From Exiguobacterium sp. s122 (GTDB taxonomy: Bacteria > Bacillota > Bacilli > Exiguobacteriales > Exiguobacteriaceae), in the NCBI RefSeq assembly GCF_018618475.1, contig NZ_JACSMD010000001.1, forward strand, positions 682,001 through 746,000: a stretch of 64,000 nucleotides of DNA, read 5' to 3'. A program made the translations under genes and the position numbers. The notes below the pieces were generated by a model. That model ran no database searches, was not told the DNA's origin, and saw nothing but the letters and a program-made list of their open reading frames with translations. Positions 18,348-49,090 of the stretch are shown one piece after another. Position 1 is the first letter of the stretch. Every line of letters begins with the position of its first letter.

Positions 18348-18700
18348 GGGGACGTTATGGATTCGACGGGGGTAGGTCGGTCGTATGTGGCGTGTCGAGG
18401 GGTCGGCCTCGTTAAAACGCAAACGCCTATAACTGGCAAAACTAACACACAACTCGCAGCAGCCTAAGTGCCCTGCGGATCCTGACATCCATCGCTTGTG
18501 TGGATGACTTTCAGGGTCTCAAACTAAGCAAGCTACGCTTCAACCTCGCCGTCTGAGGGCGCGAAGAAGAGATGAACCAGACTGGATGCGACAACGCCTG
18601 TTTATCGGCAGTGTCACATTGAGATTCAATAGATAAACTACACACGTAGAAGCATGCGTTACGATGCCTTCGGACGCGGGTTCGACTCCCGCCGTCTCCA
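18348..18700 (+). ncRNA. ssrA: Transfer-messenger RNA (tmRNA)
   Basis: Rescues ribosomes stalled on messages lacking a stop codon. The 5' end GGGGACGTTATGGATTCGAC pairs through GGGGAC with GTCTCC next to the encoded CCA (18698-18700). The T-arm-like GGTTCGACTCCC is present. The tag reading frame at 18435-18467 starts with the resume codon GGC and encodes GKTNTQLAAA, ending with the LAAA-type degradation signal and TAA. It lies directly behind smpB, its protein partner. The 3' end is a typical integration site for mobile elements, and a decayed copy of it is found about 600 nt downstream. Confidence 0.97.
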
Positions 18701-18743
18701 TTTTTAAACAGTCTACATGGACTGTGATCAATGATTTTTAACG

Positions 18744-19240: not shown

Positions 19241-19291
19241 GTTTTTTAATAGATTGCTGGAGATTACTACCTATCTACTTGGATGCGTAAC

Positions 19292-19396
19292 GTCAGTTTA
19301 TCGACAGTGTCACATTGAGATTCAATAGATCAACTACACAAGTAGAAGCATGTGTTCACGACACCTTTGGACGCGGGATCGACTCCTGTTGCTCCC
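19292..19396 (+). repeat. Decayed duplicate of the tmRNA 3' end (attachment-site remnant)
   Basis: About 100 nt nearly parallel to ssrA 18598-18700: the shared runs include AGTGTCACATTGAGATTCAA, GTAGAAGCATG and GGACGCGG. It has many substitutions, lacks the terminal CCA (CTCCC in place of CTCCA) and has no 5' partner half, so it cannot be a working tmRNA. Site-specific integrases that use ssrA recreate its 3' end on insertion; the duplicate is best read as an old att site or as DNA brought in with a foreign ssrA end. It marks the left border of the retron region. No integrase gene remains in the window. Confidence 0.75.
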
Positions 19397-19634
19397 TTTT
19401 TATGAAATTGTTGCGAATGTAATACGTTTAAAAGTTAAACGCCATTTGAGACATTGAATATACATTCCTTTAAAAGCAACCCTACTCCTCTAACAATTTT
19501 TTTACAAACTGATAAATTAAATTTTTAAATGAGAATTATTTGGTAAACAATGTATAATTAAATTTGAAAGTTGAAAATGAATAAATTTAAAAATGTAAAA
19601 GGGTTTTGATATTTAAATTAACGGGAGGTTTAAA
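19397..19634 (+). promoter_or_regulatory. AT-rich leader and promoter region of the retron operon
   Basis: No gene is seen. The base composition drops sharply to AT-rich here and stays so until about 22.8 kb. A TATAAT box at 19553-19558 is the best -10 candidate; only a weak -35 is visible. GGGAGGT (19622-19628) is the ribosome site for the effector ATG at 19635. Confidence 0.5.
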
Positions 19635-21563
19635 ATGGGGATTTTAAAAATAAAATATGAGAATGTTCGAAGTATAAAAAATAGCTTTTTAACTTTATCA
19701 GACCTAAATATTCTTTTGGGAAGAAATGGATCAGGAAAAACTAATCTACAGAGATATCTTAATTATTATTACGAGAACCTTACTGGGAATTCTATTAATA
19801 CAGACATCTTTGATAAAGAAAATCCTTATAATGATTATGCTAAAATATCAATACAATATGACTTAAAAAGTTTTACAGAAAGGGGAAATCTAGAACAAGA
19901 GATGTTCCAACAAATTTCAAAAGAGTTAGATAGCGAGAAGATAATCACGCTTACTCTCATACAGTATAAAAACAATAAAATTATTTGGAGTCATTCATAT
20001 GAAACTAGAAAAATTATCAAATATCTTTTCCCTATTTATTTTATAGACGTTCGAAGTATAGATTTATTAGATTGGGAAAATATTTGGGATTTAATAGGGG
20101 ATTTAGGTCAAAAGCGAAGTAAAACAGAAGATACTCTTTCTACAGAGTTAGATGTTTTGTTACAAAAAATTTATGGGGATAGATATATTGAAAGTTTATC
20201 TCAATTAAAGGGTGAATTAAAAAAATCTGGTTATGGATTAATCCCTTACAGCAACAGTGATAAATTTAAACAATTGTATAAATTTATCTTTGGTGGAGAG
20301 GTTTTCAACTATAATGAAAACAAATTAGATTTCTATTCAAATGGTTCAAATTCCTTTAATTACATTAGGATTTTTTATTTGGTTTTAAATATGTTACATA
20401 AAGATAAGTTAAAACACCCTTTAGTTATTCTAGATGAGCCTGAAATAGGTTTGCATCCTACTTTAATAGATGAGTTAGTTAATTTCATCAGTTTAAATGA
20501 TAATAAGATACAAACATTATTATCAACACATTCATCACGAGTAGTTAAGAATAGCATGGTATTATCAGAAGTTAATATTTTTCAATTAATAGAAGATAAA
20601 AATACAACAATTATAAAAAAAGTTAAGACATTTGAAGATAGTAGATTAAATAAAATAATAACCGACAAAGAAGCTAGTTATTATTTTTCTAATGGAATCT
20701 TATTTGTTGAAGGCACAACTGAATACGAATTGTTTACGAATAAATTTTTGAGAGATTTATATCCAATCTTGAAACGAGTAGAAATTTTTTCCTATGATTC
20801 AAACAACGTGTCTCTTGACATCTCTCACCCTCATCAACGAAAAATGAAAATTCCGTATTTGTTACTACTAGATTCAGATAAAATTCTTAAATATAATGTT
20901 AAAACAAGAAAATTTAAAGTTGTTGGCGACACCTACAACCCTCTTAAAAATCAAGAACTTGAACGTGAAGAGCTGTTTCATTATGGAGAGTGGAGGATAC
21001 TCAAAAATGTTAGAAAAAGAGTAATGGGAATCTCTAAGAAAGTAGAGTTTAAGTTTGTTGATAATACTTTTAATTTCAATGATCCACTTTTTGATAAGTT
21101 TAGGTATCTAGTAAAAAGTTACTGTAACTATTACAACGTCTATCCAGTTGATACAACAATTGAAGGGGTATTAATCAATAGAGAAAACTATAATTTATTT
21201 TATGAATGGTTAATTAGTGATCAATCTGCGTATACACGAAAAGACAGCTTGAAAGCTATTTATAACATGGTTGGTAGTCCAGAGTATAAGGTAGATTTAT
21301 TAAGATTTATAGTTGAAGGTAAATTAGATACATTAGTGCCTCTAAACAAAAAACATCTAGCAGATTTTCCAGATGGTGTTTTGAAAAAAGGATATACAGA
21401 AATTTTAGTTTTACCTAAATTGAAAAAGGGTTCAGGATGGGTGAGTGATTATATTAGATACGTTTATACTGGATTAGAAGGGAAAAATAAAGTATATGAA
21501 TTTTCTATTTTATTTCCAGAGTTAACTGATATAATTGAGAAGTTAGAAATAGTAATGGAGTAA
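19635..21563 (+). CDS. Retron effector: OLD-like ATPase with TOPRIM nuclease domain
   Basis: A 642-residue protein combining an ABC/SMC-like ATPase and a TOPRIM domain, as in OLD-family nucleases. ATPase motifs: Walker A LLGRNGSGKTN (Lys35), Walker B LVILDEPEIGLHP (Asp267-Glu268) and the switch His in LLSTHSSR (His299). TOPRIM motifs follow: GILFVEGTTEYELF (Glu359) and LLLLDSDK (Asp413, Asp415). In retron defence such proteins are the toxic effector held in check by the RT-msDNA complex; the ATPase-TOPRIM arrangement recalls the OLD-type effector of Retron-Eco8. Here the gene lies upstream of the ncRNA and its last codons and stop form part of the first inverted repeat. AT-rich codon use contrasts with surrounding genes, indicating transfer. 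A stand-alone OLD/Gabija-type nuclease is less likely given the RT neighbour. Confidence 0.85.
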   Translation: MGILKIKYENVRSIKNSFLTLSDLNILLGRNGSGKTNLQRYLNYYYENLTGNSINTDIFDKENPYNDYAKISIQYDLKSFTERGNLEQEMFQQISKELDSEKIITLTLIQYKNNKIIWSHSYETRKIIKYLFPIYFIDVRSIDLLDWENIWDLIGDLGQKRSKTEDTLSTELDVLLQKIYGDRYIESLSQLKGELKKSGYGLIPYSNSDKFKQLYKFIFGGEVFNYNENKLDFYSNGSNSFNYIRIFYLVLNMLHKDKLKHPLVILDEPEIGLHPTLIDELVNFISLNDNKIQTLLSTHSSRVVKNSMVLSEVNIFQLIEDKNTTIIKKVKTFEDSRLNKIITDKEASYYFSNGILFVEGTTEYELFTNKFLRDLYPILKRVEIFSYDSNNVSLDISHPHQRKMKIPYLLLLDSDKILKYNVKTRKFKVVGDTYNPLKNQELEREELFHYGEWRILKNVRKRVMGISKKVEFKFVDNTFNFNDPLFDKFRYLVKSYCNYYNVYPVDTTIEGVLINRENYNLFYEWLISDQSAYTRKDSLKAIYNMVGSPEYKVDLLRFIVEGKLDTLVPLNKKHLADFPDGVLKKGYTEILVLPKLKKGSGWVSDYIRYVYTGLEGKNKVYEFSILFPELTDIIEKLEIVME

Positions 21564-21742
21564 GTAGTAATTGCCTTTTTAAGGTGCCTTGTTGAAAAGT
21601 TCGTCTAGATTTGAAAAACCTAGATGATTAATTAACTTAAAATCCAAGGAATCAATGTTGCTATTTGCTGTGTGTTATTTTTTACGCAGCTTCACTTTGC
21701 GCGTAACATTAATACTTTCAGAAAGTACTTACTCCATTACTA
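21550..21742 (+). ncRNA. Retron msr-msd-like non-coding RNA
   Basis: Perfect 17-bp inverted repeats enclose 193 nt: 21550-21566 (TAGTAATGGAGTAAGTA) and 21726-21742 (its exact reverse complement), matching the a1/a2 repeats of retrons. Within it, an msr-like stem pairs 21601-21608 with 21620-21627 (one G-T) around an 11-nt loop, and a small CCTT/AAGG hairpin sits at 21575-21584. An msd-like long hairpin pairs 21654-21661 with 21703-21710 and, inside, 21667-21673 with 21684-21690. A possible branching G is 21573 in TTGC just after a1 (inference). The a2 arm ends 11 nt before the RT ribosome site. The RNA would be the template and primer for msDNA made by the adjacent RT. Confidence 0.82.
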
Positions 21743-21766
21743 CTATTTTAATTAGGAGGTCATAGT

Positions 21767-22795
21767 ATTAATATTTATGAAGAAAGTTTTTTTTATAAAA
21801 AAATATTAGAATATGGTTTAACTCCTCCAACAGATATTACAAGTAATAAAGCCGATGCTTACAACACATTTGAATTAATTATTAATGGTAAAAAAAGAGA
21901 AATAAATGCAATTAGTCCGAAAAGTGATTTATACAATATTCAAAAAAGCTTATTAGATAATTTCCTTACACATATCCCACTTCCTAATTGTGTTTGTGGA
22001 TTTATCAAAGGTAAGAGCTACTTAGATTTTTTAGAGGCACATTTAAAAAAAGAATACTATTTAAGGATAGATATTAAAAACTTCTTTCCTTCTCTTAAGG
22101 CTGAAAGAGTAAAAGAAACATTAAGCGAGTATATAAAAATCTCTAATTATACTAAAAAACAGGAAGTCCTGGATAACATAGTAGATATAGTCACTTTAAA
22201 TGGGAGTCTTCCTCAAGGGGCTGTTACTTCTCCTCAACTATCTAACATTCTTTTCAGAAGACTTGATATCAGGATACGTAACTATTGTAGAAAGTTTAAT
22301 GTAGATTTTACTAGATATGCTGATGATATGTTATTTTCTTCAAATGACGATAGACTACATAAAGATTTTTTCGTGAAAATGATTTCAAAAATTTTAAAAG
22401 ATAATCAACTTGTGATTAATAGAAAAAAATTAAGAAGAGGTCAAAAAAAAATCGTTCTTAATGGTTATGTAATATCAAATCATATTTCATTATCAAGAAA
22501 TAAATTGAAAAAAGTTAATTCGATTCTCTATTCTTTTGAAAACATTAAGGGAAAAAAATTAGAACCGAAAAACTTTCTTGAATTTTATAGTAGGCTTTCT
22601 TCTAATAGAAGTATTTTTCCTGACTCATCTCTTACTATAGAAAAGAAATATGATATTTTGTTTAATTATCTAGCTGGCTATAGATCGTATTTATTATCTT
22701 TTTCTAAAGAGAAACATAAAGATACTTGCGTAGACTATTCTGGAAAAATAAAAAAACTCGAGTATGTTCTGAGTAAGTTAAATAAATGGGCATAA
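21767..22795 (+). CDS. Retron-type reverse transcriptase with non-standard start
   Basis: About 342 residues, the normal size of a retron RT. Motifs numbered from 21767: finger region IQKSLLDNFL, CGFIKGKS, motif A LRIDIKNFFPSL (Asp102), motif B SLPQGAVTSPQLSN (149-160 region), catalytic YADD (184-187), and GQKKIVLNGYVIS (about 230) in place of the retron VTG motif. The usual NAxxH before motif A is replaced by FLEAH. The frame has a stop at 21749 and no ATG/GTG/TTG before 22328, which lies inside the catalytic core. AGGAGGT (21754-21760) is 6 nt before ATT 21767, so an AUU start (as in infC) is favoured; alternatively ATG 21777 is joined by a -1 shift at the T8 run 21787-21794. It reads the upstream ncRNA into msDNA. 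Confidence 0.88.
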   Translation: MNIYEESFFYKKILEYGLTPPTDITSNKADAYNTFELIINGKKREINAISPKSDLYNIQKSLLDNFLTHIPLPNCVCGFIKGKSYLDFLEAHLKKEYYLRIDIKNFFPSLKAERVKETLSEYIKISNYTKKQEVLDNIVDIVTLNGSLPQGAVTSPQLSNILFRRLDIRIRNYCRKFNVDFTRYADDMLFSSNDDRLHKDFFVKMISKILKDNQLVINRKKLRRGQKKIVLNGYVISNHISLSRNKLKKVNSILYSFENIKGKKLEPKNFLEFYSRLSSNRSIFPDSSLTIEKKYDILFNYLAGYRSYLLSFSKEKHKDTCVDYSGKIKKLEYVLSKLNKWA

Positions 22796-46493: not shown

Positions 46494-48278
46494 ATGGAAC
46501 GGACAGAACACGAATTGATTAAAGGCGGTAGCTTCGTCATCGACGCACTCGACGCGGAGCGTCTCTTCACACCGGAAGACTTCTCGGACGAGCACAAGAT
46601 GATTGGCGACACGACGGCGAGCTTCGTCGACGACCGTGTCATGCCGGTGCTTGGACGCATCGAGAAACATGAGTTCGATCTCTCGGTCGAGCTGTTGAAA
46701 GAAGCAGGTGAGCTCGGACTCCTCGGTGCGGACGTGCCAGAAGAGTACGGCGGCTATCAGCTCGATAAAATCTCGTCATCGATCATCACGGAACGGTTCG
46801 CAAAAGCGCGTTCGTTCGCCCTCAGCTATGGCGCACACGTCGGCATCGGAACTCTCCCGATCGTCTTCTTCGGGACAGAGGAGCAAAAGCATAAATACTT
46901 GCCGAAGCTCGCGACCGGGGAATGGATTGCCGCCTATGCGCTCACAGAGCCAGGCTCAGGGTCGGACGCGCTCGGTGCGAAAGCGACGGCCGTCTTGAAC
47001 GAGGCTGGCACGCACTACGTGTTGAACGGCGAGAAGCAATGGATCACGAACGCCGGTTTTGCGAACGTATTCGTCGTCTACGCGAAAATCGACGGCGACA
47101 AGTTTAGTGCCTTCATCGTCGAGCGTGACTTCAACGGTGTCTCGACAGGGGCCGAAGAACAGAAGATGGGCATCAAAGGCTCATCGACACGGACGCTCAT
47201 CCTAGAAGACGTTGAAGTTCCGGTCGATAACCTTCTCGGGGAAATCGGCAAAGGGCACGTCATCGCCTTCAACATCTTGAACGTCGGACGTTACAAACTC
47301 GCCGTCGGTGCAGTCGGTTCGTCAAAACGCGCGTTCGATCTTTCAGTCCAGTACGCGAACGAGCGCAAACAGTTCAAGACGCCAATCAGCCAGTTCCCGC
47401 TCATCCAAGAAAAACTCGCGACGATGGCGGCGAACATTTATGCGATGGAGAGCTCGGTCTACCGGACGGGCGGTTTGTTCCAGGACAGCCTCGACGCCCT
47501 CGGCGACGACAACATGCGAGACGGTTCGAAAGTCGCACAAGCGATCGCCGAATACGCAATCGAGTGTTCACTCAATAAAGTGTTCGCCTCGGAGACGTTC
47601 GACTACGTCGTCGACGAAGCGGTCCAAATCCACGGCGGTTACGGCTTCATGACAGAATATGAAGTCGAGAACTTGTACCGTGACTCGCGCATCAACCGCA
47701 TCTTCGAAGGGACGAACGAGATTAACCGCTTGATCGTGCCGGCAACCCTTCTCAAAAAAGCGATGAAAGGTGATTTGCCGCTCCTCGCAGAAGCACAAAA
47801 GCTCCAAAAAGAGCTCATGAGCTACATGCCGCAAGAACTCGACGGCACGCCGCTCGCGCGTGAGAAGATGCTTCTATCGAACATGAAGAAAATCAACTTG
47901 ATGATCGCAGGGACAGCCGTCCAAAAGTATCAACAAAACCTCCAAAACGAGCAAGAGATTCTCGCGAAGGTTGCCGATATCATCAGCGCCATCTACGCGC
48001 TCGAGGCAGCAATCGCCCGGACGGACAAAGCGATTGCCCGTACCGGCGCCGAGAAGAACCAGCAGAAAGTCCGCTATACGGAAATCTTCGCCGAGCAAGT
48101 GTTCAAACAAGTCGAACTCATGGCGAAAGAAGTGTTGTACGCGGCAGCGTCTGGCGACGAGCAGCGCATGCTTCTGTCCGCGATGAAGAAGTTCAGCCGT
48201 TATCAGCCAATCAACGTCATCGGCACGAAGCGGGAAGTCGCGGCGAACTTGATCAAAGCGAACAAGTTTATCGTCTAA
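46494..48278 (+). CDS. fadE: Acyl-CoA dehydrogenase
   Basis: A 594-residue flavoprotein catalysing the first step of beta-oxidation. It shows the FAD-binding [20 protein letters not shown] and the [17 protein letters not shown] segment, the FERKQF-like [12 protein letters not shown], the [20 protein letters not shown] motif (split by quotation) and [11 protein letters not shown]. Its C-terminal extension (about 170 residues beyond the usual 380-residue core) is typical of the FadE/YusJ group. ATG 46494 follows AAGGGGGA. Last gene of the fad operon, followed by a terminator. Confidence 0.95.
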
Positions 48279-48284
48279 CAGTAG

Positions 48285-48322
48285 AGAAGGGTCGGCCGGA
48301 CGCGGTCGACCCTTTCTTTTTC
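48285..48322 (+). terminator. Terminator of the fad operon
   Basis: GAAGGGTCG pairs with CGACCCTTTC around a GC-rich loop, followed by TTTTTCTT. Confidence 0.88.
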
Positions 48323-48361
48323 TTCATGACTCCCGGTACAATGAGTTCAGGAGGGATGTTC

Positions 48362-49090
48362 ATGAGACGCGAAGACTTACTTGAACGGATGGACGCGATT
48401 GGCCGCTCGGTTGCAGCATGTGACGGGACGCTCCTCTTGCTCGCACTCGGCTCAATCGGCCTTGAGACGGACCGGCTCGACGACTATTCCGACCTCGACT
48501 TCTTTCTCATCGTCGAGGACGGACAGAAAGCCCGCTTCATCGATGAATTGGATTGGCTCGAAGTCGCACCGCTCGCTTACCAATTCCAGAATACGAAAGA
48601 CGGGCATAAGGTCATGTATGCAGACGGCATCTACGGCGAATTCGCCGTCTTCGAGCTTCATGAGATGGCGTCCATCGCTTACACGCCAGGACGGATCATT
48701 TGGCAACGAGACGAGGCGCTTGAGACGTTCGCGACACCGAAAATCAGCATACAGCCAACGGCTGCCGCTTACTGTTATGAAGAGGCGCTGACGAATCTGT
48801 ATGTCGGCCTGCTCCGTGAGCGGCGAGGGGAACGGCTCGCAGGATTTGAGCTCATTCAAGTCGCGGCCGTCACGAACGTGTTGAAGGCAAACGGGGAGGC
48901 GAGTGACCCGTTCAATCCGACTCGGCGCGTAGAAGTGCAACGGCCGGAGATGATTGTATTCCTCGAGCAAGCGGTCCTCGGATATGGGCGGTCCGTCGAA
49001 GCGGCGGAAGCGATTTTGGTATACATTGCAGAACGCCATCCGGTCAACGCGACGTTGAAGCAAGAAATCGAGCGCTTGCTTCGGGCGTGA
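48362..49090 (+). CDS. Nucleotidyltransferase-fold protein of unknown function
   Basis: A 242-residue protein whose N-terminal part carries a nucleotidyltransferase-like signature: LGSIGLETDRLDDYSDLDFFLIV, giving GS, then D-x-D (SDLDF), as in the Pol-beta/AadA-like superfamily. The rest is helical (YCYEEALTNLYVGLLRERRG) with an AadA-like C-terminal bundle. A minimal or drug-modifying role cannot be told from sequence. ATG 48362 follows AGGAGGGA; upstream frame extension covers the fad terminator and is rejected. It stands as a single gene. Confidence 0.7.
   Translation: MRREDLLERMDAIGRSVAACDGTLLLLALGSIGLETDRLDDYSDLDFFLIVEDGQKARFIDELDWLEVAPLAYQFQNTKDGHKVMYADGIYGEFAVFELHEMASIAYTPGRIIWQRDEALETFATPKISIQPTAAAYCYEEALTNLYVGLLRERRGERLAGFELIQVAAVTNVLKANGEASDPFNPTRRVEVQRPEMIVFLEQAVLGYGRSVEAAEAILVYIAERHPVNATLKQEIERLLRA

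Follow-up and report, generated by a model that had tools for sequence, protein, structure and literature searches.

The closest described systems are Eco8 and the other type I-B2 retrons. In Eco8, the reverse transcriptase (RT) makes msDNA, and phage SSB activates the complex that RT-msDNA forms with an OLD nuclease (PMC12887533; PMC13158370). The Eco8 OLD nuclease alone is neither active nor toxic, and DNA is cut only by the RT-msDNA-OLD complex (PMC12887533). The order of OLD gene, non-coding RNA (ncRNA) and RT gene is that of class 3A OLD/type I-B2 retrons (PMC10568477). Genes that start with near-cognate codons have been described separately. In S. aureus, a member of the Bacillota, cvfC1, ccpN and infC have AUU or AUA starts with an extended Shine-Dalgarno (SD) sequence, and the output from these codons, where measured, was about 10% (up to 30%) of that from AUG (PMC13009471). 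The pcnB gene of E. coli has an AUU start according to work cited in the same paper (PMC13009471).

We analyzed a stretch of 64,000 nucleotides, referred to as the window, and found a locus with this gene order on its + strand. The first gene (19635..21563) encodes a 642-aa OLD-family effector with an ABC ATPase and a TOPRIM domain (PADLOC ATPase-Toprim_I-B, E 2.1e-170; Pfam AAA_21). It is preceded by a GGAGG ribosome-binding site (19624..19628) located 6 nt before its ATG at 19635, with a duplex energy of -11.5 kcal/mol against the anti-SD. A predicted retron ncRNA (msr-msd) follows at 21550..21742. It is bounded by a 17-nt perfect inverted repeat, of which the a1 arm (21550..21566) overlaps the 3' end of the OLD gene and the a2 arm lies at 21726..21742. 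The predicted fold has a z-score of -4.7, and 0 of 200 shuffled sequences were as stable; the ncRNA had no match to a retron family in Rfam. The third component is a retron RT at 21767..22795, 342 aa long if read from an AUU codon (PADLOC RT_I-B, E 3.9e-100; RVT_1). The RT_I-B profile scored far above the other retron RT profiles of PADLOC, and the best PDB match was the Eco8 RT. With an RT of the I-B clade, an upstream OLD-type ATPase-TOPRIM gene and a structured ncRNA bounded by a1 and a2 between the two genes, the locus is, judged from its sequence, a type I-B2 (Eco8-like) retron.

The locus resembles Eco8 and type I-B2 retrons in gene order, in the OLD-like ATPase-TOPRIM, in the RT_I-B profile and in the position of a1 within the 3' end of the OLD gene, and the homology to the Eco8 RT spans nearly the whole length of the protein. 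However, the identity to the known members is low, at about 28-36% for the RT and about 28-30% for OLD. The start of the RT gene also differs. Here the a2 arm ends 24 nt before the AUU, compared with 0-3 nt before the start in Eco8 and type I-B2, and a dedicated strong SD precedes an AUU where those systems have an AUG.

The OLD and RT genes have a GC content of approximately 27%, compared with approximately 55% in the flanking genes. They lie in a 4.2-kb island flanked by the tmRNA gene on one side and a conserved gene on the other, in a region whose content varies across the genus. The 3' part of the tmRNA gene (window 18583-18706) is repeated about 700 nt downstream, at 19280-19402, with 85.6% identity, and similar tmRNA repeats were found at the same place in several genomes of the genus. 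The tmRNA 3' end thus appears to have served repeatedly as an integration site, and the retron lies just beyond the second copy. The retron copy is unique among the 19 genomes of the genus. No close relative or second allele was found in these or in 38 genomes of the order, 399 of the class, 299 of the phylum and 369 of Gammaproteobacteria, nor in plasmids and phages, nor by an exact 22-mer search of viral contigs.

The positions given in the preliminary description for the RT frame and its start (the stop at 21749, ATG 22328, AGGAGGT, ATT 21767, ATG 21777 and the T8 run) were all confirmed. The last stop ahead of the RT frame is the TAA at 21749-21751, after which the codons read TTA GGA GGT CAT AGT ATT AAT ATT TAT GAA GAA AGT TTT TTT TAT. 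The frame contains no ATG, GTG or TTG from 21752 to 22327, and the earliest of these codons is ATG 22328. This ATG directly adjoins the 3' side of the YADD catalytic motif (22316..22327), so an RT translated from it would be catalytically dead and no canonical start could yield a catalytically competent enzyme. For comparison we took 464 kb of this genome (the window plus 20 sampled stretches of 20 kb) and collected the open frames that do not overlap and have 200 codons or more, 309 in total. In none of the others is the first canonical start as far from the preceding stop as in the RT frame, where the distance is 192 codons. The second longest, 154 codons, was in the frame at window 47863-49087; judged by eye, its N-terminal part does not look coding in this reading, and the real gene there probably starts near the first ATGs. 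By contrast, the Eco8 RT in the PDB aligns to residues 6-324 of the present RT (E 2.4e-40), which shows that the frame 5' of 22328 is truly coding. The in-frame homology reaches residue 6 and is ungapped with the Eco8 sequence DKVFYEKIL. The RT frame has no internal stop and its RT motifs are intact. An A9 run at window 22443-22451, a second homopolymer in the RT frame at which slippage would be possible, reads in frame in the assembly.

We then examined the signals for initiation. The SD sequence AGGAGGT (21754..21760), with a duplex energy of -11.4 kcal/mol against the anti-SD, is the only SD near the start of the RT frame. It is followed after a gap of 6 nt by the proposed AUU start codon (21767..21769), and no ATG, GTG or TTG lies within its reach. 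Counted from GGAGG, the spacing to the ATT is 7 nt, which is more common in the genome than any other GGAGG-to-start spacing (45 of 124 genes). GGAGG occurs only three times on the + strand of the 4.2-kb island, at the OLD start, inside OLD and before the RT. For the first 20 codons of a sequence of the island's composition, the chance of a GGAGG 6-8 nt before an in-frame ATT, ATC, ATA or CTG was approximately 0.002, and for ATT alone approximately 0.001. The RT gene therefore lacks an in-frame canonical start and has a strong, well-spaced SD before an AUU, as in AUU-start genes of the infC and pcnB kind.

The infC gene of the same genus provided a control. In E. coli, infC is autoregulated by IF3. 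We found that infC reads GGAGGTGCTAACC-ATT in 19 out of 19 genomes of the genus (L043 and L035-L053), including the one that carries the retron, with a GGAGGT-type SD located 7-8 nt before the ATT. This conservation indicates that the genus very probably uses AUU behind SD sequences of the same kind. The comparison with infC had already been drawn in the preliminary description, together with the proposal of AUU initiation. The proposal is well supported by the strength and spacing of the SD, by infC in the same genome and by the position of the ATG in the related loci described below. Taken together with the chance estimate, these observations make it likely that the RT of this complete type I-B2 (Eco8-like) retron is translated from AUU 21767, guided by the strong SD AGGAGGU.

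An alternative entry into the RT frame is provided by the out-of-frame ATG at 21777, which reads MKKVFFIKKY before a stop (21777..21809). A -1 shift on the T8 run (21787..21794), through ribosomal or transcriptional slippage, would lead from this ATG into the RT frame and give a product starting MKKVFFYKKIL. The heptamer T-TTT-TTT is slippery in the frame of ATG 21777, and the product resembles DKVFYEKIL of Eco8. Against the profile of the relatives it scored the same as the AUU product (234.0 and 233.9 bits), so homology cannot separate the two N-termini, but the initiation signals argue against slippage. The 17 nt upstream of ATG 21777 lack an SD core, and the best duplex with the anti-SD is only -3.2 kcal/mol. 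The AGGAGG is 17 nt away, beyond the spacing range scored in the genome, and would be left without a role. Slippage would also place four residues before the FF pair, compared with 7-12 in the relatives that carry the N-terminal motif. Thus, the locus has the slippery run of a programmed -1 frameshift without an SD for the ATG that would feed it, and the route requires two unlikely steps, an initiation without SD and a -1 shift on T8. We consider slippage, which had been put forward as the other option, very unlikely. The phase variation suggested along with it found no support, as no second allele appeared in any of the genome, plasmid, phage and viral collections searched.

Initiation at AUU 21767 was further evaluated with more distant retrons. 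We identified 11 further I-B2 loci with an RT N-terminal motif (L022, L023, L029, L030, L031/L032 and L094-L098), some of which are near-duplicates: L031/L032 and L096/L097 match alike, and L030 and L098 have the same residues at the start. L031 and L032 were covered by a single reading, that of L031. The RT starts with an ATG at the matching position in all 11, near-duplicates included. In these relatives the RT has an F-F or F-Y pair 7-12 residues from its start, with I-L or a similar pair after it, and the AUU product M-NIYEES-FFYKKIL fits this pattern. In the loci for which a full a1/a2 repeat was recognized, 0-3 nt separate the end of a2 from the ATG. In L095 the upstream DNA is lacking, yet the same a2-like sequence occurs 3 nt before the ATG. 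In a Vibrio phage copy (L021), the motif was absent at the annotated start. The copy on Vibrio alginolyticus plasmid pL29 (L023) is Eco8-like, with both OLD and RT annotated in broken pieces, and is probably decayed. The preliminary description had held that relatives with a normal ATG at this position would speak against AUU initiation. Such relatives exist, but they are all distant (about 28-36% identity), and an ATG at the matching site in distant relatives supports the position of the start rather than refuting the AUU. As read from these sequences, the position of the start is conserved while its codon is not, and the AUU is particular to this copy.

The same comparison could be read as a recent loss of the start codon, in which ATG changed to ATT and the retron is beginning to decay, with too little RT to keep the system on. 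The ATG in all distant relatives found, the single base that separates ATT from ATG and the uniqueness of the copy in the genus are in line with such a loss. However, the rest of the locus is intact, including the 642-aa OLD, the perfect 17-bp a1/a2 repeat and an RT with its motifs and no internal stop. In addition, the SD is stronger than those of the relatives, which is what a role in supporting a weak start would predict, but the host ordinarily has strong SDs as well. We therefore regard recent start-codon loss as unlikely.

An error in the assembly, such that position 21767 really holds an ATG or the T run at 21787 really has nine T, would also remove the need for an AUU start. The assembly is a draft of 23 contigs, homopolymers are error-prone in some chemistries, and the locus is known from one sequence. 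With a T9 allele, however, ATG 21777 would still lack an SD and AGGAGGT would have no start to serve. The assembly keeps the RT in frame through the A9 run that begins at 22443, and a G-to-T mistake exactly at the start codon is improbable. An assembly error thus appears highly improbable, and initiation at AUU 21767 remains the preferred reading.

The ribosome-binding sites of the RT differ between this locus and its relatives. Those of the relatives are weak (-1.4 to -8.0 kcal/mol) and lie in or beside a2, whereas the present site is stronger and lies outside a2; this comparison is confounded by the Gram-negative origin of some relatives (those from E. coli, Klebsiella and Vibrio at the least), since weak sites are frequent in such hosts. 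In L022, L029 and L031 the site that serves the RT either overlaps a2 or directly adjoins it. RNA folding at a2 could couple msDNA production to RT translation in several I-B2 retrons. At the present locus the SD is, by prediction, rather inaccessible (approximately the 9th percentile of genomic controls), and a predicted hairpin pairs it with ACUCCUCC at 21820-21827 (-16.5 kcal/mol, z -2.3 against dinucleotide shuffles). We considered this hairpin as a control element that hides the SD and the AUU, and rejected it. Among synonymously recoded sequences, 31% were as stable and 39% had SD occlusion as low, which indicates that the hairpin follows from composition and coding and is not a specific feature.

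Assuming that the AUU works with about one tenth of the efficiency of AUG, as in S. aureus (PMC13009471), the mRNA, which would also carry the OLD gene and the ncRNA, would yield little RT. Combined with a weak start, a strong SD outside a2 may lead to a similarly low RT level by another route than the weak SD and AUG of the relatives. From these sequences, a strong site may have been traded for a weak start, with RT low in both designs. The RT dosage could thus stay low even though the ribosome-binding site has left the ncRNA arm. The earlier suggestion that low RT matters where the RT balances a toxin, which would make the RT an antitoxin, is unsupported and does not fit the Eco8 biochemistry: as the Eco8 OLD alone is not toxic (PMC12887533), low RT would limit sentinel complexes and not release a toxin. 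By analogy, we infer that low RT would limit the number of sentinel complexes at the present locus. The AUU might go further and act as a functional control, replacing the weak a2-side site of the relatives, that makes the amount of RT, and with it of the msDNA sensor complex, depend on the condition of the initiation machinery, such as the level of IF3. We regard this as doubtful; if it were true, changes in initiation induced by phage or stress would alter immune readiness.

The start codon also matters for detection. Catalogues of retrons and defence systems depend on gene callers that seek ATG, GTG and TTG. For a copy such as this one, these callers would report a 155-aa fragment that begins at 22328 and lacks the catalytic motif, or nothing at all. 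Since gene callers miss AUU, counts of such systems would be too low, or the systems would be taken for broken.

A search by title and abstract, with incomplete coverage of the literature, found no earlier case of a retron gene with an unusual start codon. Should the AUU prove to be in use, a mobile defence gene would join the short list of bacterial genes initiated at AUU. The S. aureus cases and E. coli pcnB were mapped by ribosome profiling or genetics, whereas the AUU of the RT was deduced from its sequence. Compared with infC, whose AUU is conserved in 19 genomes of the genus, that of the RT sits in a single copy of a mobile defence gene, and both have a GGAGGT-type SD followed by ATT. 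The RT likewise resembles cvfC1, ccpN and infC of S. aureus in combining a near-cognate start with a strong SD, an arrangement that gives low output in that species.
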